Source: a virus. From it: a stretch of 43,703 bases of DNA. The DNA lies in the IMG/VR virus record IMGVR_UViG_3300006793_003853, positions 1 to 43,703 of that record; one strand, given 5' to 3'. This document shows positions 7,069 to 35,752 of this stretch, piece after piece. Positions within the stretch are counted from its first letter, which is position 1; each line of letters begins with the position of its first letter. A program made the position numbers and the translations under genes. The notes below the pieces were generated by a model. It saw only the letters and a program-made list of their open reading frames with translations. It did no database searches and had not been told where the DNA came from.

Positions 7069-7097
7069 ATTATACTTGGTTGTAGGTCAGATGTCAA
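7069..7097 (-). promoter_or_regulatory. Perfect-consensus sigma70 promoter
   Basis: Reading the minus strand, TTGACA (7097-7092), a spacer of exactly 17 bases and TATAAT (7074-7069) are present with no mismatch. The -10 ends 28 bases before the ATG of the 180-residue gene. The -35 overlaps the last codons of gp55. This would make host RNA polymerase transcribe the operon from 7041 leftwards, that is, as immediate-early genes. Confidence 0.85.
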
Positions 7098-7684
7098 GAC
7101 TCTTTTAGTGCTTCAATTTTCTCTTTGGCTAAGTCCATTGCTTCCTTGTCATTGAAGTACTTTGGTCTACGTTTTGGTTGACTCTTTGCGGTCTCCGCAA
7201 ACTTCTCATTTGCTTTATCAGACTCTTCAATCTGTCTCTTCATGTACTCAAGAAATTCATTGGAACCACTATCTCCGCCAAGTTCATCCATCATGGCGTG
7301 AAGATCAAGACTCTGAATATACTTGTTCTTCGTATCGATCTGTTTCTTTTCTTTCTGAATCCTACGCAAGAAAGCATAGTAGGTAATCTGAGTGAAGTAT
7401 GCAAAGGGATTCTTGGATTTAGCGGGATCAAAGTTATTGATATAGGTAATACAGTTTTCGATGCCGTCGAGAATCATTTCCTCTCGGAAAGTATAGTTTA
7501 CAAAATTAGACTTGTACGCCAAGTGATTGGCGATCTTAACAAAACACTCACCAATATAATTCGACACCCTCGGTTTGGGTTCGCCAGCTTCTTCCGCAGC
7601 CAATCGTTCTTCACGATACTCCGTCATCGCTGCCAGAAATTCTTTGTTGTTGACGTAGTGTCTGTTTTCTTTTTTGTTTGCCAT
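7094..7684 (-). CDS. 55: RNA polymerase sigma factor for late transcription, gp55
   Basis: The 196-residue protein matches the T4 gp55 family, a minimal sigma factor that directs host core polymerase to TATAAATA late promoters with help of the sliding clamp and gp33. The recognisable core is FVNYTFREEMILDGIENC followed by ITYINNFDPAKSKNPFAYF and TQITYYAFLRRIQKEKKQ, corresponding to sigma region 2. The C-terminus is charged and lysine-rich. It starts at ATG 7684 with AGGA eight bases upstream and has its own near-consensus sigma70 promoter. Several TATAAATA octamers in this window agree with an active gp55. Confidence 0.93.
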   Translation of the reverse strand: MANKKENRHYVNNKEFLAAMTEYREERLAAEEAGEPKPRVSNYIGECFVKIANHLAYKSNFVNYTFREEMILDGIENCITYINNFDPAKSKNPFAYFTQITYYAFLRRIQKEKKQIDTKNKYIQSLDLHAMMDELGGDSGSNEFLEYMKRQIEESDKANEKFAETAKSQPKRRPKYFNDKEAMDLAKEKIEALKES

Positions 7685-7710: not shown

Positions 7711-7739
7711 AGTATAGTACATTTTATACTAAATGTCAA
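7711..7739 (-). promoter_or_regulatory. Sigma70 promoter upstream of gp55
   Basis: On the minus strand TTGACA (7739-7734), a 17-base spacer and TATACT (7716-7711) are seen, one mismatch from consensus overall. The -10 ends 26 bases before the gp55 ATG. It indicates that the late sigma factor is itself made by the host polymerase early. Confidence 0.8.
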
Positions 7740-7756
7740 TGGTCAAATAATTTACC

Positions 7757-7785
7757 TTGACAACTGGTGTCAAAACAATTATAAT
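7757..7785 (+). promoter_or_regulatory. Perfect-consensus sigma70 promoter on the plus strand
   Basis: TTGACA (7757-7762), a 17-base spacer and TATAAT (7780-7785) occur on the plus strand, facing away from gp55 and into the 3' end of the LSm-like gene, which is on the minus strand. No plausible plus-strand protein gene follows. The transcript would be antisense RNA. The -35 is also one arm of an inverted repeat, TTGACA-ACTGG-TGTCAA (7757-7773), which could be an operator. Confidence 0.6.
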
Positions 7786-7791
7786 CAACTT

Positions 7792-7850
7792 GTGGTTCAA
7801 AGGATAATTAAGCTTTAATGAAGCTGATCCTTGGGTTTACCCATCCGAGT
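7792..7850 (+). ncRNA. Candidate antisense RNA with stem-loops
   Basis: RNA started from the plus-strand promoter would soon contain a two-part stem: AAGGAT pairing with ATCCTT around an inner AGCTT-TAATG-AAGCT hairpin (about 7800-7833), followed by GGG-TTTA-CCC. There is no obvious T-run terminator. The pairing would also exist in the minus-strand mRNA at the end of the LSm-like gene, so it may belong to that transcript instead. No expression evidence exists here; the end coordinate is arbitrary. Confidence 0.3.
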
Positions 7851-8225
7851 AATTTTATCCATGATTTCATCTAACGTGGCGTCTTCATCAATTTGCGGAT
7901 CGTAATCGTCCATGGCATCCATGAAATCTAAACCCTCTTTTCTATCTTCCATGTACCCCTCGGTCATCTTGTAGAATCCTTCGGTGTACTGTTCATCCAA
8001 AGAGCAGACAGTAATGATCTTACTTTGTTTAATCATGTAAGATTCTTGATCCGTGAAAGATATCCACGGCCTTAATGACAAGGCCTCATGAGTGTCAGAG
8101 ATTTTGATTCTTGTTATTTCCAGAGGAATCGTGGTTTCAATATTGGTTTCGTCTTCTGATATGATACCAACAATTAGTTGCATACCATTTTCTAAACAAA
8201 TAATACTAGGTTTGCATTTTACCAT
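7815..8225 (-). CDS. LSm-like conserved phage protein
   Basis: The 136-residue protein begins KPSIICLENGMQLIVGIISEDE, followed by IETTIPLEITRIKI, which looks like the first strands of an LSm/SH3-type small barrel seen in many marine T4-like phages. Then comes LRPWISFTDQESYMIKQSKIITV, and the C-terminal 50 residues are acidic (MDAMDDYDPQIDEDATLDE). RNA binding or regulation has been proposed for such proteins by fold only. It overlaps the end of uvsW by 20 bases. Function is unknown. Confidence 0.65.
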   Translation of the reverse strand: MVKCKPSIICLENGMQLIVGIISEDETNIETTIPLEITRIKISDTHEALSLRPWISFTDQESYMIKQSKIITVCSLDEQYTEGFYKMTEGYMEDRKEGLDFMDAMDDYDPQIDEDATLDEIMDKITRMGKPKDQLH

Positions 8226-9693
8226 TAGAGTCTATCCTTATTACTTTGTATTCAAAGTTCTCTTCATTATATAATTTAATTCTCTCAAGCACATGATTCA
8301 AAGTATAGTTCTTTTTGTTCTTCCATGATAAATCATCACCAATATCAAATAAATTACAACTAGATTTGTCTTCGCCTTTCCTCAGACCCCTACCAATAGA
8401 CTGTAGATTTCTTATTCGACTCTTACTTGGCGAGGCGAACACTACATTGTGTAGGTTACGAATATTTATACCAGTGGAGAACGTACCATAAGAGGCTACA
8501 ATTATAGTGTCTTTTGATTGTTCTGTCAACTCGCGAATCTTTTCTCTCTGTTCGGTCTCGGTGCCACCGAAAACAAAGTACACTGGTTTGTCGGTGATAG
8601 CCTTTATCATCTTATACAGGACATCGCCGTGTTTCTCTACAAACTGGTACAATACCAGCGTATTACCCTTCTGAGAGGTCGCCAGTTTCGCCAGAATGTC
8701 ATTGCGTTCTGGGTTAGACACTAGGAAGTCCATCTCTTCTTGATAAGTCATTTTAGATACAAGTTTTCTTTGTTCGTCCGTGTATCCGATTATCATACAG
8801 ATAATTTTAAGTTCTGCAAGTTCTTTTTTGTCCATCAATTTTTTGGTTGTGGTCACCTTAAATACTGGGCCAAACACGCCTTCCAAGACAAGTTTGTGTG
8901 TCTTTGTACCGTCTAGTGTACCAGTAGTACCAATTCTGAAACGTGCATTAGTGCATTTGTCCATGAGTGTCATCAGTGACTTCGCCTTGAACAAGTGAGC
9001 CTCGTCACCATAGACTACATCAAACTGACTGAACCATTCTTTCGGAAACTTGTAGATAGATTGCCATGTGGAGATAACAACATCAGCGTTGTTTGATTTC
9101 TCTTTCCCACCATAAATTCTGTGACAGTGTTTTGCCACTTTGAACCCGTTGTTGGTTGAGTAGTCTCGGAAGTCACCGTACATTTGTTCTACCAGTGAGG
9201 TGGTGGGTACTACTATCAATTGTTTGCGACCTAGAGCTTGATGGTATCTAATCAGTGAGTAAATGATAAGTGACTTACCAGATGCAGTCGGTGACAACAG
9301 CAGAGTCCTACCAGAACTTATCGCCTCATGAATTGCGGCCTGTTGATAGTCTCTTGCTTCAATTTTTTTCTTTTGACTGCGGAGATTCAAGACACCACAA
9401 AACTCTGATACCTCTTCTTTAGAAATCTTTTCACCGAATGGTTCAAGATCAATCTGAATCTCATACTCTAGTTGTTTGGCAAACTTAATAAGATAGGGAA
9501 TCAATCCAATATACAGTTCACACTTTTGCATATTATACAGACGAATTTTTCCGTCCCAATGTCGGTTGCGATACGAGGGCATAAACTTAGCCCCAGGCAC
9601 TTCAAAGGTAAAGAAATCTGATATCTCTCTCCTTATGCCGTCATCTGCCTCCACATAAGCATGAACGTTATCTTTTTGTTTTACCCAAATCAT
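8206..9693 (-). CDS. uvsW: Recombination helicase UvsW (superfamily 2)
   Basis: I choose ATG 9693, which overlaps the uvsY stop as ATGA and gives an N-terminus (MIWVKQKDNVHAYVEADDG) in register with T4 UvsW; an upstream start at 9720 would add nine residues. The 495-residue protein has a Walker A-like SPTASGKS, a DEAH box in VVYGDEAHLF, SAT-like IGTTGTLDG, a motif around VASYGTFSTGINI and motif VI QSIGRGLRKG. T4 UvsW unwinds R-loops and branched DNA and shifts replication from origin to recombination mode. The N-terminal FMPSYRNRHWDGKIRLY is the typical substrate-binding segment. Confidence 0.95.
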   Translation of the reverse strand: MIWVKQKDNVHAYVEADDGIRREISDFFTFEVPGAKFMPSYRNRHWDGKIRLYNMQKCELYIGLIPYLIKFAKQLEYEIQIDLEPFGEKISKEEVSEFCGVLNLRSQKKKIEARDYQQAAIHEAISSGRTLLLSPTASGKSLIIYSLIRYHQALGRKQLIVVPTTSLVEQMYGDFRDYSTNNGFKVAKHCHRIYGGKEKSNNADVVISTWQSIYKFPKEWFSQFDVVYGDEAHLFKAKSLMTLMDKCTNARFRIGTTGTLDGTKTHKLVLEGVFGPVFKVTTTKKLMDKKELAELKIICMIIGYTDEQRKLVSKMTYQEEMDFLVSNPERNDILAKLATSQKGNTLVLYQFVEKHGDVLYKMIKAITDKPVYFVFGGTETEQREKIRELTEQSKDTIIVASYGTFSTGINIRNLHNVVFASPSKSRIRNLQSIGRGLRKGEDKSSCNLFDIGDDLSWKNKKNYTLNHVLERIKLYNEENFEYKVIRIDSNGKMQT

Positions 9694-10133
9694 ATAAGCC
9701 CAGATTGCATTTTGGCCCACTCAACAGCAGTTTTGATGTCCCATCCTCGGCCATTCAAACTGCGGAGTACTCGGTCTAAAAAGTCTACGGTAGTTTCTAA
9801 GTAATATACTTTATCCTGTTGGCGAATCACATCTGCATCGCTGTCCAGTTGATCTCTCATGTCTGTTCGCAACACAGCATTTTTTCTCCAAGGTTCCCAC
9901 CCTAGATTATCAAGTTCTTCCTTTGAGAGTTCCCCGCGATAGTAATCCGACTTAACTCTTTCAAGTCTTTTCAGATCAGCAATTGATTTGCGGAGTTGAA
10001 GTTTATTATTGGAGAGTAATGTTACATACTTTGAGTGTAATACGGGAGTTCTTGTTGACTCCCCACCCAAATCCAATTCATCAAGTTTACAATCTTCAGC
10101 CCATTCAGCCTGAAGTTCATTTAATGTTGCCAT
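9690..10133 (-). CDS. uvsY: Recombination mediator UvsY
   Basis: The 147-residue protein starts at ATG 10133, ten bases after the upstream gene. It has the UvsY layout: MATLNELQAEWAEDCKLDE, a central LHSKYVTLLSNNKLQLRKS and SDYYRGELSKEEL, and a C-terminal helix pair with VDFLDRVLRSLNGRGWDIK. UvsY loads the UvsX recombinase onto gp32-covered single-stranded DNA. Its position directly before uvsW, downstream of gene 23, is as in T4-like cyanophages. Confidence 0.9.
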   Translation of the reverse strand: MATLNELQAEWAEDCKLDELDLGGESTRTPVLHSKYVTLLSNNKLQLRKSIADLKRLERVKSDYYRGELSKEELDNLGWEPWRKNAVLRTDMRDQLDSDADVIRQQDKVYYLETTVDFLDRVLRSLNGRGWDIKTAVEWAKMQSGLI

Positions 10134-10756: not shown

Positions 10757-10764
10757 TATTTATA
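10757..10764 (-). promoter_or_regulatory. Late promoter (TATAAATA) for the tube-like gene
   Basis: TATAAATA on the minus strand, 23 bases upstream of the ATG at 10734 and about 13 bases beyond the T-run of the gp23 terminator. The arrangement resets late transcription between gp23 and the following genes. Confidence 0.8.
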
Positions 10765-30394: not shown

Positions 30395-31129
30395 ATGAAA
30401 ACAGTTGTGACGGTTCTTTATGGTGAAAAGTATAGTGCGGATGACGTACACTATATTTATGATAAAACCAAACAGTACAATCATATATGCATCGTAGATG
30501 ACGAGAACAGCAAACACCTTAACAAAAATATAAAACAAATCCGAATAGAAGAACCAGAGGGACACTGGGAGAAGATAAAAATATTCAAAAATAATTGGCA
30601 AGGGGATTGCCTTTACCTAGACTTAGATGTTATAATACAGGGTAGTCTAGACAAATTGTTCGACCACTGTTCAAAACCAACAATTTGTTATTGTTACTGG
30701 AAGGCTCCGTGGGATACCAGTGAGAATAAAATCTACAACAAACCAAAAAAGTATCATTTTGACGATGGTTCTGATGATCTACCTTGGACATATAAGTGGT
30801 TGGGATTGTGGAATTCCAGCGTGATGGCATGGAACGGGAATGACGCGAGATATATCTACGACTACTTTGAAGATAACGATCAATATTTTATGACTAAATA
30901 CTGTGGAGACGATAGATTTTTATACCACGAAAAACTCTTCGACAACACATTTCCCAAGGGATTGATGTACTCGTTTCAAGCCGGAGTAGATTACGACACA
31001 GACGTATCCCCAAGAGGATATAAAATAAAACCAGAATATCCAATCGTGATTATGAATGGTCTAACTGCAAAAGATGAGTTGAGAAAAAAATATTATGATG
31101 CACTTTCTCTGCATGAAATGGGGAAATAA
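30395..31129 (+). CDS. Glycosyltransferase (paralog 1 of the tandem array)
   Basis: The 244-residue GT-A-type protein has a D-x-D motif in LYLDLDVIIQGSLDKLF (near residue 75), which binds a metal and the nucleotide-sugar. The N-terminal VLYGEKYSADDVHYIYDKT matches the K/G-x-KY-x-x-x-x-V-x-x-(L/I) opening of the next three genes. Later WLGLWNSSVMAWNG and GDDRFLYHEKLF correspond to acceptor and donor contacts. It starts at ATG 30395 after AAGAAAGAG. Substrates are unknown; it overlaps the next gene by 35 bases. Confidence 0.75.
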   Translation: MKTVVTVLYGEKYSADDVHYIYDKTKQYNHICIVDDENSKHLNKNIKQIRIEEPEGHWEKIKIFKNNWQGDCLYLDLDVIIQGSLDKLFDHCSKPTICYCYWKAPWDTSENKIYNKPKKYHFDDGSDDLPWTYKWLGLWNSSVMAWNGNDARYIYDYFEDNDQYFMTKYCGDDRFLYHEKLFDNTFPKGLMYSFQAGVDYDTDVSPRGYKIKPEYPIVIMNGLTAKDELRKKYYDALSLHEMGK

Positions 31130-33602
31130 GTACTCGGCAGAATATGTAAACAATTTACGCAACATGGTTCAACAGAACTATACCAAGCGGCACAAGTTTA
31201 TATGTTACACCGATGATCCAGATGGTATTGACAAAGGCATAACCATTCGATCAATACCCAGAGTTGACCCACTGCATCCCGACTACTGGTTCGGCAAAGA
31301 GAACTACTGTTGGGACAGATCAAAATTTCTAGTACTAAATTCTCACCATTGGTTGCGTACCAAGGGCCCGTTCTGTTATATTGATTTAGATGTTGTCATT
31401 CAAAACAACATCGATGACATATTTGAACTCTCTGCAACACCACACATGTTGTATTCAAACTGGGAAAATCCCTCAGTGTTGCATGATAGACGTTTCAAAG
31501 ACATAAGAGGCACTCTGCATAACTCCAGCGTAATGTTGTGGTGTAACGATGCAGGGGAAAAAATTTACAATGATGTCCTAAAACACAAGGACACGATATT
31601 CAAAACCTTCTGGAAGGGAACCGACAATTACTATCCTTGGAGAGAACACCAAGTGGTAGGGGATGGGTACTGGTCTTTCCTTCCCTCGGAGTGGGCGTAT
31701 TCTTATAATCGCGGCCAACAATACCCAGATGATGTTACTCCGCATCTATACAGGGAAGAACCAAAGTTTTGTATCTTTGAAGCACCAGTTGTACCCAAGA
31801 GAACAAAGTTTTTTAAACCGCATGATGTGAAGGACTATAACCTTCTGATACACTGGCACGGCAAGACAGAGTTTGAAAGACTTTGGTTGCCCAAATTTCC
31901 TAGTACATTTTTTACCAAAAACAAACACACCGATAAAATATCAGAACTTTTGAAGAACAAAGACTACGATACATTGCAGTCAAAGTTTGAGAAAGACCTG
32001 CCCCAATTGAAAGATGATTGGGAAAAGTATTCGAGTAAGTTTGAAACTCTGCGTGAGTGGTTGGGATTTGATTCCGTATCAGATGACTCACTAGAAAAAA
32101 ACTACATGAATCAAGATGTGGTATCGTCAATCAAAAGTCTGGTTGACCAAAATGATTTACAATCTTTGTCTGAGAAACTAATCAAAGACTTTCCAGAACT
32201 AAAAGAATACTTTGCCAAACCCGTGGAAGAAGTCAAAAAACTTGTTCCAGAACTAGAACGTGAAGTCTCAGACATGAAGTTTATCAGGATGATCGAACCT
32301 CACCACAAAGGAGTCATCAAGGATTTATTTGAATCTGGTGACATGATATCAATGCACTTGAAATTTTGTGCAGACTTCCCAGAAGACAGACTACTCCAAG
32401 AAGGTGACCAATCTCTATATTGGAATAAAGATGCAGATGATATCTATGATTTTTACAAACAAAGATATATCAACAAGATGCAACGAGTAGTATATAAAGA
32501 GGCAAAAGATTGTGGGCCAGTGAGATACTTTTGGAACGTCAGCAATCTACAATGTTTTGCTCTTTACAAAAGACTTTGGAAGAATAATACACTTCCTAAA
32601 ATCAAACACGATGTTATGGAAAACATCAAACAACATGGGTTACAAAGAATATTTTGGGATTCATCGGAGTCGGACATACAGGCATTGTATAAAAAATATT
32701 ATGTTAATACTCTAAAGGAACTATTCTATAAACAAGACTATGAAAAAGTATTTGAACGTCTGTATAATATCATGCCGAAACAAGAGTTGTTGTCGATTCT
32801 AAATCAAGACAATGTATCGGACAACGACACTCTGATAAAATACTTTCAAATGCATGGGGAACAATTCAGTGACCTATATCACGGACTGTATGATGACGGT
32901 GCTCCAGATGGAGCTCTGATTCAATTGAGTACAACGCAGAACGACACCGGAGATGAATTCAATGACCTATTTGTAAACGGCAAAGAACACAGCCCGGCAT
33001 CGATCAAGAATATATTTGACAAATTCAAAGTCAACTGGGTCACGTTTATGTGCGAAACTTCTGACCCCACAAAGTCGCAACACCTAGAGGACATCTGTAA
33101 GTACTTCAAAGAAAAAAATGTTACCATCACCGTACAGACATATAACAAAAATTTTATCAAACCAATCTACATTGACAACTTACAATATGTGCCGCAGCCA
33201 CAGAAAGCAGAATCAGAAAACGGGGTAACAGAGATAATAGCAAGTGACATCCCCGTGAACCTAGAGACTTTGAAAATGTTCAAGAAGTCAGATGAGATAA
33301 GACCGATCAAAAGAAAAATGAAAGAGAGAGACCCCGTGTGGTGTGACTCAAGAAAGTCTGGCTACTTCTATGTCAACTCAGCTGGAAATGCGTTTCCCTG
33401 CGCCTTTATTTCTAGAGACGTAGAAGAAAATAAACTATTGCCGCACCATCCCCTTGACTATACCTACAATAGACGGTATAATGATCTAAGTAAGTTCTCT
33501 GTTGGTGAAGTAATATTCAATCACGACTTTGAAAATATAAGTCAACACCTAAAACGAAAACCGTTAAACATATGCACCAAAAGATGTGGGGGGTGTAAGT
33601 GA
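31095..33602 (+). CDS. Glycosyltransferase fused to helical repeats and a degenerate radical-SAM/SPASM-like domain
   Basis: This 835-residue protein has three parts. Residues about 1-270 are a GT-A glycosyltransferase with the array signature (FLCMKWGNKYSAEYVNNLRN) and D-x-D in CYIDLDVVIQNNIDDIF. Residues about 275-600 are lysine/glutamate-rich helices that look repetitive: ISELLKNKDYDTLQSKFEKD, IKSLVDQNDLQSLSEKLIKD, KDLFESGDMISMHLKF and LKELFYKQDYEKVFERLYN. Residues about 610-835 look like a radical-SAM/SPASM protein: an (S/T)-P-x-x-I-x-x-I-F segment, WVTFMCETSDPTKSQHLEDI, CKYFKEKNVTITVQTYN, then CDSRKSGYFYVNSAGNAFPC and a terminal C-x3-C-x2-C. The usual CxxxCxxC near the start of that domain is absent (STTQNDTGDEFNDL in its place). 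The catalytic cluster is therefore probably lost, while SPASM-like cysteines remain. Function is unknown. Confidence 0.65.
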   Translation: MMHFLCMKWGNKYSAEYVNNLRNMVQQNYTKRHKFICYTDDPDGIDKGITIRSIPRVDPLHPDYWFGKENYCWDRSKFLVLNSHHWLRTKGPFCYIDLDVVIQNNIDDIFELSATPHMLYSNWENPSVLHDRRFKDIRGTLHNSSVMLWCNDAGEKIYNDVLKHKDTIFKTFWKGTDNYYPWREHQVVGDGYWSFLPSEWAYSYNRGQQYPDDVTPHLYREEPKFCIFEAPVVPKRTKFFKPHDVKDYNLLIHWHGKTEFERLWLPKFPSTFFTKNKHTDKISELLKNKDYDTLQSKFEKDLPQLKDDWEKYSSKFETLREWLGFDSVSDDSLEKNYMNQDVVSSIKSLVDQNDLQSLSEKLIKDFPELKEYFAKPVEEVKKLVPELEREVSDMKFIRMIEPHHKGVIKDLFESGDMISMHLKFCADFPEDRLLQEGDQSLYWNKDADDIYDFYKQRYINKMQRVVYKEAKDCGPVRYFWNVSNLQCFALYKRLWKNNTLPKIKHDVMENIKQHGLQRIFWDSSESDIQALYKKYYVNTLKELFYKQDYEKVFERLYNIMPKQELLSILNQDNVSDNDTLIKYFQMHGEQFSDLYHGLYDDGAPDGALIQLSTTQNDTGDEFNDLFVNGKEHSPASIKNIFDKFKVNWVTFMCETSDPTKSQHLEDICKYFKEKNVTITVQTYNKNFIKPIYIDNLQYVPQPQKAESENGVTEIIASDIPVNLETLKMFKKSDEIRPIKRKMKERDPVWCDSRKSGYFYVNSAGNAFPCAFISRDVEENKLLPHHPLDYTYNRRYNDLSKFSVGEVIFNHDFENISQHLKRKPLNICTKRCGGCK

Positions 33603-34411
33603 GAGTAAATTATGTATGTTGTAAGTGGGGAACCAAATACGGTCCACACTTCGTCAACAGATTGAAAGAGATGGCAAAAAGAAATACTCCAGACAAGTTT
33701 GAGTTTCACTTTTATTGCTACACCGATAACTCTGAAGGATTTGATGATGATGTTAATGTTATCCCTTTTCCTGACATTCCTGATATTCATCCTAAGTATT
33801 GGTTTGGCAGTGAAAATTTTAAGTATGGTATGGCCCGCTGTTGGGATCGTCCTAAAACTTTTGTTTTTAATACCCATAATTTTGCTCCTGATAAGCCTAC
33901 TGGACGTTTTGTTTTTTTTGACTTGGATGTTATCATTCAACGCGATCTTACACCTGTTATAACATATAACATGGAAAGACCCACCAAGATGAAGTCTTGG
34001 TGGCAAGACCCCAGACCAATGGAGACTAGACAATTTAAGTTGGCTCATGGTGCATATACAAACGGATCGTGTCAAGTGTGGTCAGACGATCAGTGTGAGT
34101 GTATCTGGGAAGATGTGCTAAAAAATCAAAAGAAGATTTGGTTCACATACACTGACGGAACCGATAACTATCATTCATGGAAGTGGGGTAGATACGGTGA
34201 AGACTTGTGGGATCACTTTCCTTCTTGGATGGCATACTCATACAACCGTGGTCGGTCATGGGATGAAGACGATTTGAACGTTGGTATCTACAGACCAAAC
34301 TGCATCATCTGCGTGTTCAACGTTGATCTGTTGCCCTTTGAGGATAAGAGTAGAGGTCACACGAAACAAGATGAACTTGCTGATCCTAAATTACTGGAGC
34401 ATTGGCGATGA
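33599..34411 (+). CDS. Glycosyltransferase (paralog 3 of the tandem array)
   Basis: The 270-residue protein begins with GTG 33599, overlapping the previous stop (GTGA). It has the array opening YVCCKWGTKYGPHFVNRLKE, IHPKYWFGSENF matching paralog 2 (LHPDYWFGKENY), D-x-D in FVFFDLDVIIQRDLTPV, then FTYTDGTDNYHSWKWGR and PSWMAYSYNRGRSW, also close to paralog 2 (EWAYSYNRGQQY). So it descends from the same ancestor. The stretch 33720-33968 uses T-ending codons and CGN arginines, unlike the rest of the gene, which uses AGA and C/A-ending codons, pointing to recombination. Confidence 0.78.
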   Translation: MRVNYVCCKWGTKYGPHFVNRLKEMAKRNTPDKFEFHFYCYTDNSEGFDDDVNVIPFPDIPDIHPKYWFGSENFKYGMARCWDRPKTFVFNTHNFAPDKPTGRFVFFDLDVIIQRDLTPVITYNMERPTKMKSWWQDPRPMETRQFKLAHGAYTNGSCQVWSDDQCECIWEDVLKNQKKIWFTYTDGTDNYHSWKWGRYGEDLWDHFPSWMAYSYNRGRSWDEDDLNVGIYRPNCIICVFNVDLLPFEDKSRGHTKQDELADPKLLEHWR

Positions 34412-35082
34412 ACATCTATACCGTAAAGTGGGGTGACAAATATAATCACCAACATGTCAACAGTATCTATGAACAGTGTTTGAAATATCTAACATGTGAC
34501 TTTGATTTTTTCTGTCTAACAGAAGACCCCAAAGGATTGGACCCATCGATTAAGCCTTTGACTCTGCCGGGCGGCAACAAACTACAAAAGTGGTGGAACA
34601 AGATGTACCTGTTCGACGACAGCATCGTGACTCAAAAAGGCGAGAAGATGTTTTTTGACATTGACACCATCATCCAAAAAAATGTTGATGTGATAGCTGA
34701 GTATGACCCAGAAGATTGTTTGTGTATGGTAAAGACTTGGTGGCACGATCTTGAAACACAATACAAAGACACTAGACACATTCCTCACAAGTTTACGGAT
34801 TTAAACTCATCCGTGTTGCGTTGGAATGACAGTCTAAATACTAGAGAACTAACCGAATACTTCAACAAGTATAAAGAACAAATACTGTGGTATTATCGTG
34901 GTCTTGATAACTTCTTCTACAACAGAAGAGTAATCAAAACAAAACTGTTCCCCCTTGGATGGGTGTATAGTTTCAACCAAGGATTTGTTTTTCCCCACGA
35001 CATAGAAAAACATACCTACCGAGAACTACCATACATTTGTATATTTGACTCAATGGGAAAAAGTGAAGATGTTAAATTTTAA
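34408..35082 (+). CDS. Glycosyltransferase (paralog 4 of the tandem array)
   Basis: The start is ATG 34408, overlapping the previous stop (ATGA), with GGAG upstream; an in-frame TTG at 34402 is less likely. The 224-residue protein opens MNIYTVKWGDKYNHQHVNSI, has D-x-D in MFFDIDTIIQKNVDVIA, LNSSVLRWND (like NSSVMAWNG of paralog 1), YYRGLDNFFYN and LGWVYSFNQGF. It is the most diverged and shortest member. It lacks the W-F-G-x-E-N segment of paralogs 2 and 3 and carries a different N-L-Q-K-W-W-N-K region. Substrate is unknown. Confidence 0.75.
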   Translation: MNIYTVKWGDKYNHQHVNSIYEQCLKYLTCDFDFFCLTEDPKGLDPSIKPLTLPGGNKLQKWWNKMYLFDDSIVTQKGEKMFFDIDTIIQKNVDVIAEYDPEDCLCMVKTWWHDLETQYKDTRHIPHKFTDLNSSVLRWNDSLNTRELTEYFNKYKEQILWYYRGLDNFFYNRRVIKTKLFPLGWVYSFNQGFVFPHDIEKHTYRELPYICIFDSMGKSEDVKF

Positions 35083-35752
35083 TTTCTTAAATAATTTCAA
35101 ACACTGGGGCGAGGCCCTAAGTATCATAGAACATAAGATGCCACACAAACTGGCAGACTTCAGACAGTCTTTGTCAGAGAACAACGTGGAATCAAGTGTT
35201 TGGTTGGTCGAGGAACTACAAAAGTATCTTGATGAATACTATGCAAAGCCTGGGAGTCTCAGAGTACTGATCCTAAATTCTTGGTTAGGAATGCCTATGG
35301 TCCCGTTGATCTGTGAGAACCTAGACGTAGCACAGATTCACATGGTTGACTTGGATGAAGAGTCGATTGAGTTGTCAAAGATTTTTCACAAACACTACGC
35401 TCAAGAAAAGTTTGTCAACATTCGACACTGGAATTTGGATATCCCATTTGAGTTTGAAAACCTCAACAAGATTGAAGTAGATGTTGTGATCTGTATTCAC
35501 ACAGAACAAATGTATCCCCTAGAAGAACTAGTTACAAAGAATCCCAATGCAGTATTCGCCATGCAAAACTCTAACGTGGTTGAAGAGATGTATGGTATAA
35601 ACTGTGTGGGTTCTATTGAAGAGTTAAAAGATCAGATCGGATTGCCTGATGCAGAATTTGAGGGCACCATCAAACAAACTTATCACTCTTGGGACGGAAA
35701 AAAAGAATACGATAGGTTTATGATTATCGGCCAGAAGGAAGGATTCTTTTGA
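35069..35752 (+). CDS. SAM-dependent methyltransferase-like protein
   Basis: I choose ATG 35069; a TTG at 35045 would extend it into the previous gene. The 227-residue protein has a Rossmann core: LRVLILNSWLGMPMVPLICE in the place of motif I, IHMVDLDEESIELSKIFHK as the acidic post-I strand, VNIRHWNLDIPFEFEN, and VDVVICIHTEQMYPLEELV as motif IV. This order fits class I methyltransferases, although motif I lacks the usual G-x-G-x-G (N-S-W-L-G). It is the last gene of the plus operon and overlaps the opposing SGNH-like gene by 29 bases at the 3' ends. Target could be a sugar, protein or small molecule. Confidence 0.6.
   Translation: MLNFNFLNNFKHWGEALSIIEHKMPHKLADFRQSLSENNVESSVWLVEELQKYLDEYYAKPGSLRVLILNSWLGMPMVPLICENLDVAQIHMVDLDEESIELSKIFHKHYAQEKFVNIRHWNLDIPFEFENLNKIEVDVVICIHTEQMYPLEELVTKNPNAVFAMQNSNVVEEMYGINCVGSIEELKDQIGLPDAEFEGTIKQTYHSWDGKKEYDRFMIIGQKEGFF

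Follow-up and report, generated by a model that had tools for sequence, protein, structure and literature searches.

A conserved sigma70-type promoter opposite the uvsW operon of T4-like phages, predicted to produce a non-coding antisense RNA

The best reading of the sequences compared here is that a conserved promoter of the host sigma70 type, which faces the uvsY-uvsW-(LSm)/gp55 gene row of T4-like phages from the other strand, makes a non-coding RNA. We regard interference with the opposing operon as a tentative account of the promoter's main role (probability roughly 0.4), and it is plausible that the antisense RNA would hold back late expression of uvsW-LSm. The element was analyzed in a 43.7-kb linear IMG/VR virus record (IMGVR_UViG_3300006793_003853; 43,703 nucleotides, hereafter the window), which derives from a T4-like marine phage. 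Among named phages, Pelagibacter phage HTVC008M and cyanophages come closest to it in DNA sequence, at ~67%.

The minus strand of the window carries, in order, uvsY (9690-10133), the uvsW helicase gene (8206-9720), a gene for an LSm/Sm-like protein (7815-8225; phrog_471, “methylamine utilization”), a gap of 130 nt, and the gene for a gp55-type late sigma factor (7094-7684; phrog_234, 1.1e-60). The LSm-like identity was confirmed by a match of the family profile to PDB 3by7 at 3.8e-11. A late-promoter-like ATAAATA on the minus strand (10757-10763) precedes the gene leading into uvsY-uvsW-LSm, ATAAATA matches number 18 in the window against 8.6 expected, and transcription of the operon thus appears to begin at a late promoter. 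The initial annotation placed every gene of this region on the minus strand, which holds around the promoter but not further off, where the open reading frames at 30395-35752 lie on the plus strand.

Within the LSm-gp55 gap, and pointing into LSm and uvsW as first described, the plus strand carries a mismatch-free sigma70-type promoter (TTGACA-17-TATAAT, 7757-7785, 12/12), with its −35 hexamer at 7757-7762 and its −10 hexamer at 7780-7785. The hexamers thus stand within the 16-18 nt spacing of sigma70-type promoters, and the promoter faces a gene from the opposite strand, as that of a cis-antisense RNA does. Four perfect sites with 16-18 spacing occur in the window, compared to 0.03 on average across 200 dinucleotide-shuffled versions; three of them are intergenic, and the one at 7757 is the only one on the plus strand. 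A second perfect TTGACA-17-TATAAT lies within uvsW, on its coding strand (8501-8529, minus). Promoters of cyanophage Ma-LMM01 have a reported start spacing of 6-8 nt (PMC5780444), from which we infer a transcription start near G7792, within the start-site region CAACTTGTGGTTCAA (7786-7800, plus). The first part of the predicted RNA (7792-7900, plus, the 3′ limit being arbitrary) overlaps the LSm stop codon (7815-7817) and would cover the 3′ end of the LSm gene. The gp55 gene has a divergent sigma70 promoter of its own on the minus strand (7711-7739; TTGACA 7739-7734, TATACT 7716-7711), and 17 bp separate the two −35 hexamers.

The first description had named absence of the hexamers from closely related phages as an observation that would count against the promoter, and they are kept both there and in all 66 non-redundant gaps compared. 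In loci with LSm proteins 79% and 66% identical to that of the window, TTGACA and TAYAAT (TACAAT or TATAAT) are retained even though the spacer and a large part of the gap differ, which is the pattern expected of selection on the promoter. For the wider comparison, gp55 was used as bait to collect 80 IMG/VR loci plus isolates, and all gaps of at least 60 nt were retained, leaving 66 after near-duplicate removal. The antisense promoter scores at least 9/12 in 66/66 of these gaps, at least 11/12 in 48 (0.35 expected from dinucleotide shuffles), and 12/12 in 17 (0.00 expected), counts that are inflated by relatedness, given that the set was thinned by sequence identity and not on a full tree. A further 17 cyanophage gaps all contain it, each at 10/12 or better. 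Among isolates, it was found in HTVC008M, in P-HM1 and seven other cyanophages, in Syn9 (LSm-gp55 gap at 123674-123768 of NC_008296.2), P-SSM2 (126792-126902 of GU071092), P-SSM4, S-B43, S-P4, S-CAM3, and S-RSM4, and in Sinorhizobium phage phiM7; in P-HM1, uvsW is annotated as two overlapping open reading frames (locus L096, 514-1993), a hint of either a frameshift or an error in the sequencing. The L238-L249 loci examined carry it at 12/12. The weakest case is S-CREM2 (9/12), and in Melnitz and the Melnitz-type loci L031 and L036 the scan takes a poor register (9/12), so that the true −10 is uncertain. Loci with only ~10 nt between the genes have no space for either promoter.

The signal is also rare within genomes: on the strand opposite gp55, TTGACA-16/18-TANAAT occurs 0-3 times per genome in nine isolates of 144-218 kb, and in S-H9-2, S-RIM8, S-RIM2, and S-CAM4 the antisense site is the only one on that strand. 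A tblastn search with the window's LSm protein returned no match among isolates, because the LSm family diverges to less than 25% identity; the isolates were reached instead via gp55 and an LSm from S-CAM4, the LSm family alignment being too diverse to seed a locus search. Upkeep of the promoter across very distant phages indicates that it probably has a real job, and we consider it very likely, on this conservation, that the element is a functional promoter. The reading of the hexamers as chance or AT-rich promoter-like noise, for which one may cite the weak matches that AT-rich gaps raise, is contradicted by these shuffles and by both sets of gaps, and its probability is close to nil.

The distance from the antisense −10 to the LSm stop codon is nearly fixed (median 27 nt, interquartile range 26-29), although most gaps range from 87 to 185 nt. 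In phage B23, gp55 (a phrog_234 match) is placed at the opposite flank of LSm, and the LSm 3′ end still carries a 10/12 relative with a similar start region, so that the element does not simply track gp55. B23 gp55 is inverted relative to LSm (locus L145, 1-804), with a phrog_234 match confined to its first part (residues 9-71 of the stretch read); its 504-aa open reading frame is annotated as gp55-like and may contain an insertion, for example an intein. In a clade of T4-like contigs (L241-L249), uvsW is followed by gp55 with no LSm gene found between them, and the antisense promoter stands at 12/12 in those examined; the element therefore does not need LSm either. Common to all these arrangements is its place where the uvsW operon ends (3′).

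Past the promoter, conservation soon ends, with information content at background ~14 nt beyond the start motif. An unconserved RNA body, near-fixed placement at the uvsW/LSm end, and a sigma70 signal together favor convergent transcription over a trans-acting RNA. According to this proposal, the antisense promoter would be active early and in the middle phase, while the host sigma70 polymerase works, and would share that polymerase with the gp55 promoter. Its non-coding transcript would meet the uvsY-uvsW-LSm operon head-on at the operon's 3′ end, and opposing late uvsW-LSm transcription would be restrained or ended by collision or by antisense pairing. Once gp55 takes over, the antisense promoter would presumably fall silent. 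T4 UvsW is expressed from a late promoter and then unwinds origin R-loops (PMC3016281).

That function of UvsW bears on an alternative in which the promoter is that of an R-loop replication origin, like T4 ori(uvsY), with the transcript as primer. Sequence arms flanking the start would let the displaced strand fold, so that the 5′ end of the RNA stays hybridized. Such arms are indeed found. In many cyanophages the −10 is followed by AACTC-TGTCA-GGGTTCAAGAG, and in most lineages the sequences on either side of the predicted start can pair as two arms, which covary between lineages (AACCG/CGGTT, AACAG/CTGTT, AGCGG/CCGCT, AGGC/GCCT, CAGGA/TCCTG, and TGTAG/CTACA), those of the window itself being weak (AACT/GGTT). 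Pairing exceeds dinucleotide shuffles as well as an arm-swap control: with 17 lineages thinned by gp55 identity, 0/2000 swaps were as good, and with only six lineages p was 0.06 with wobble pairs and 0.02 without. TG served as the alignment anchor in the arm tests, and its invariance is therefore not evidence. Since transcription usually starts downstream of the 5′ arm, the arms would be part of the RNA only if transcription starts unusually near the −10; otherwise, they would act as DNA. A hairpin in the gp55-sense RNA was considered and rejected, given that G.U pairs help in 0 instances there and in 21 on the antisense side (66 sequences; 12 and 56, respectively, in a looser test with 81 sequences). 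G.T/G.U wobble therefore favors the plus (antisense) strand for the arms, though it is suggestive only, because many of the sequences are related and arm composition already leans that way.

Besides the wobble direction of the arms, the origin reading draws on a promoter that is non-coding, is nearly single-copy in the genomes checked, and keeps its position beside uvsW, the gene for the R-loop helicase. T4 oriF likewise consists of a promoter and an unwinding element, and its persistent R-loops are removed by UvsW (PMC3016281); the uvsY unit is directed toward uvsW in RB14 and in a Vibrio T4-like phage, too. The middle promoter of ori(uvsY)/oriF resembles the antisense promoter in having a sigma70-type −10 and in lying beyond the uvsW 3′ end and pointing toward uvsW, but it has a MotA box (PMC3016281) and drives uvsY, and in RB14 this promoter region is without such start-site arms. 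Moreover, GC skew in four genomes shows no turn at the locus, which is weak evidence in these phages, and no clear A+T-rich unwinding element follows the promoter (A+T of 0.71 at +20 to +40, compared to a locus mean of 0.65). The same start region also stands before a few protein-coding genes, such as cp12-cpeT in ACG-2014a and cpeT in S-RIM2. Among phage genes, cp12 and other metabolic ones are of the middle class (PMC5082946). The start region thus belongs to a promoter class, probably a middle one, and is not specific to antisense control. Altogether, we consider an origin at this site unlikely, and slightly less likely still the more specific form of the proposal, in which an R-loop initiation promoter common to marine and rhizobial T4-like phages is stabilized by its arms until UvsW removes the R-loop late. 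To our knowledge, no origin has previously been located in these very abundant phages; if the reading were true, this would be the first.

An explanation that we hold to be just as improbable as an origin is that RNA polymerase bound at the antisense site obstructs the gp55 promoter and thereby sets the timing of late expression, with the RNA as a by-product. The two promoters are close in many loci: of 57 compared, 24 have a shared element, CTTGACAAG, that serves as the −35 of the gp55 promoter, and in five more the −35 boxes interlock (29/57 altogether). The antisense promoter generally matches the consensus more closely than the gp55 promoter does (17 perfect sites versus 4). However, in loci with neither arrangement the −35 boxes lie 1-58 bp apart, with 44-58 bp in HTVC008M and others, and the 57 bp of HTVC008M imply that competition between the promoters cannot be universal. 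In addition, the position is fixed with respect to LSm and not to gp55, and B23 retains the element without an adjoining gp55, albeit as a single case with a weaker match.

Less likely again is a small trans-acting or LSm-bound RNA of ~40-60 nt, a possibility close to the earlier suggestion that the RNA could be the target of the LSm-like protein itself. LSm-fold proteins as a class bind RNA, and loci L017 and L018 show a stem and a T run ~40 nt from the start. Nevertheless, terminators were not clearly enriched downstream (22 versus 14 in shuffles) and no conserved one was found there; the RNA had no match to an Rfam family, and no conserved fold was detected past the start site. A structured small RNA was rejected on these results. 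Nor was evidence seen for the suggested LSm target: the RNA body is not conserved, and a distant clade (L241-L249) retains the promoter although its uvsW-gp55 interval yielded no LSm gene. The nested stem-loops that had been described at the start of the window's RNA received little support, as it folds no better than shuffled sequence (7786-7850, plus, −14.8 kcal/mol, z −1.27, 24/200 shuffles as good; z −0.65 for 7792-7850, from the likely start). The inverted repeat TTGACA-ACTGG-TGTCAA that includes the −35 is perfect, as had been stated, and unique in the window, but it is not a conserved feature: the 79%-identical relatives have a shorter version at a shifted position (TTGAC-AACAG-GTCAA), and the 66% relatives lack it. 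An operator role for the repeat was rejected, as it is not kept among relatives.

A far weaker candidate is that the promoter serves a gene for a small protein, which some phages retain and others have lost by decay. Directly behind the antisense promoter, phiM7 has a 50-aa open reading frame (locus L151, 4306-4458, minus; phrog_28687), as does phiM12, and among isolates this family was found only in phiM12, phiM7, and phiM19. Outside the phiM7/phiM12 group, no protein product was predicted, in keeping with a cis-antisense RNA: no open reading frame is shared downstream, and one of at least 20 aa preceded by a Shine-Dalgarno sequence occurs in 1/66 loci. A peptide from the window's open reading frame at 7818-7874 was likewise discarded, the candidate ATG being directly followed by TAG in the 79% relatives.

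An antisense promoter beside the uvsW operon has partial counterparts in known systems. CfrI of cyanophage S-PM2 is likewise a non-coding antisense RNA of a marine T4-like phage (PMC2984593, PMC5931967), detected as RNA, whereas the transcript proposed here is predicted from sequence; CfrI maps to psbA and a gene for a homing endonuclease, whereas the antisense promoter occupies the uvsW-LSm/gp55 border across Kyanoviridae and beyond. The host-like sigma70 promoters of T4-like cyanophages at cp12-cpeT and cpeT have the same hexamers and start region, but they precede protein genes, and the antisense promoter precedes none. As in overlapping divergent bacterial promoters, −35 boxes are shared or interlocked in about half of the loci, although overlap is not universal among antisense/gp55 pairs. 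No earlier description of the antisense promoter was found in the literature searched, which did not include the Syn9 transcriptome (10.1038/ismej.2015.210). That phages of cyanobacteria, SAR11, and rhizobia all retain a strong promoter at this one position with no gene behind it implies that they share a step of control where the late uvsW operon meets the gene for the late sigma factor.
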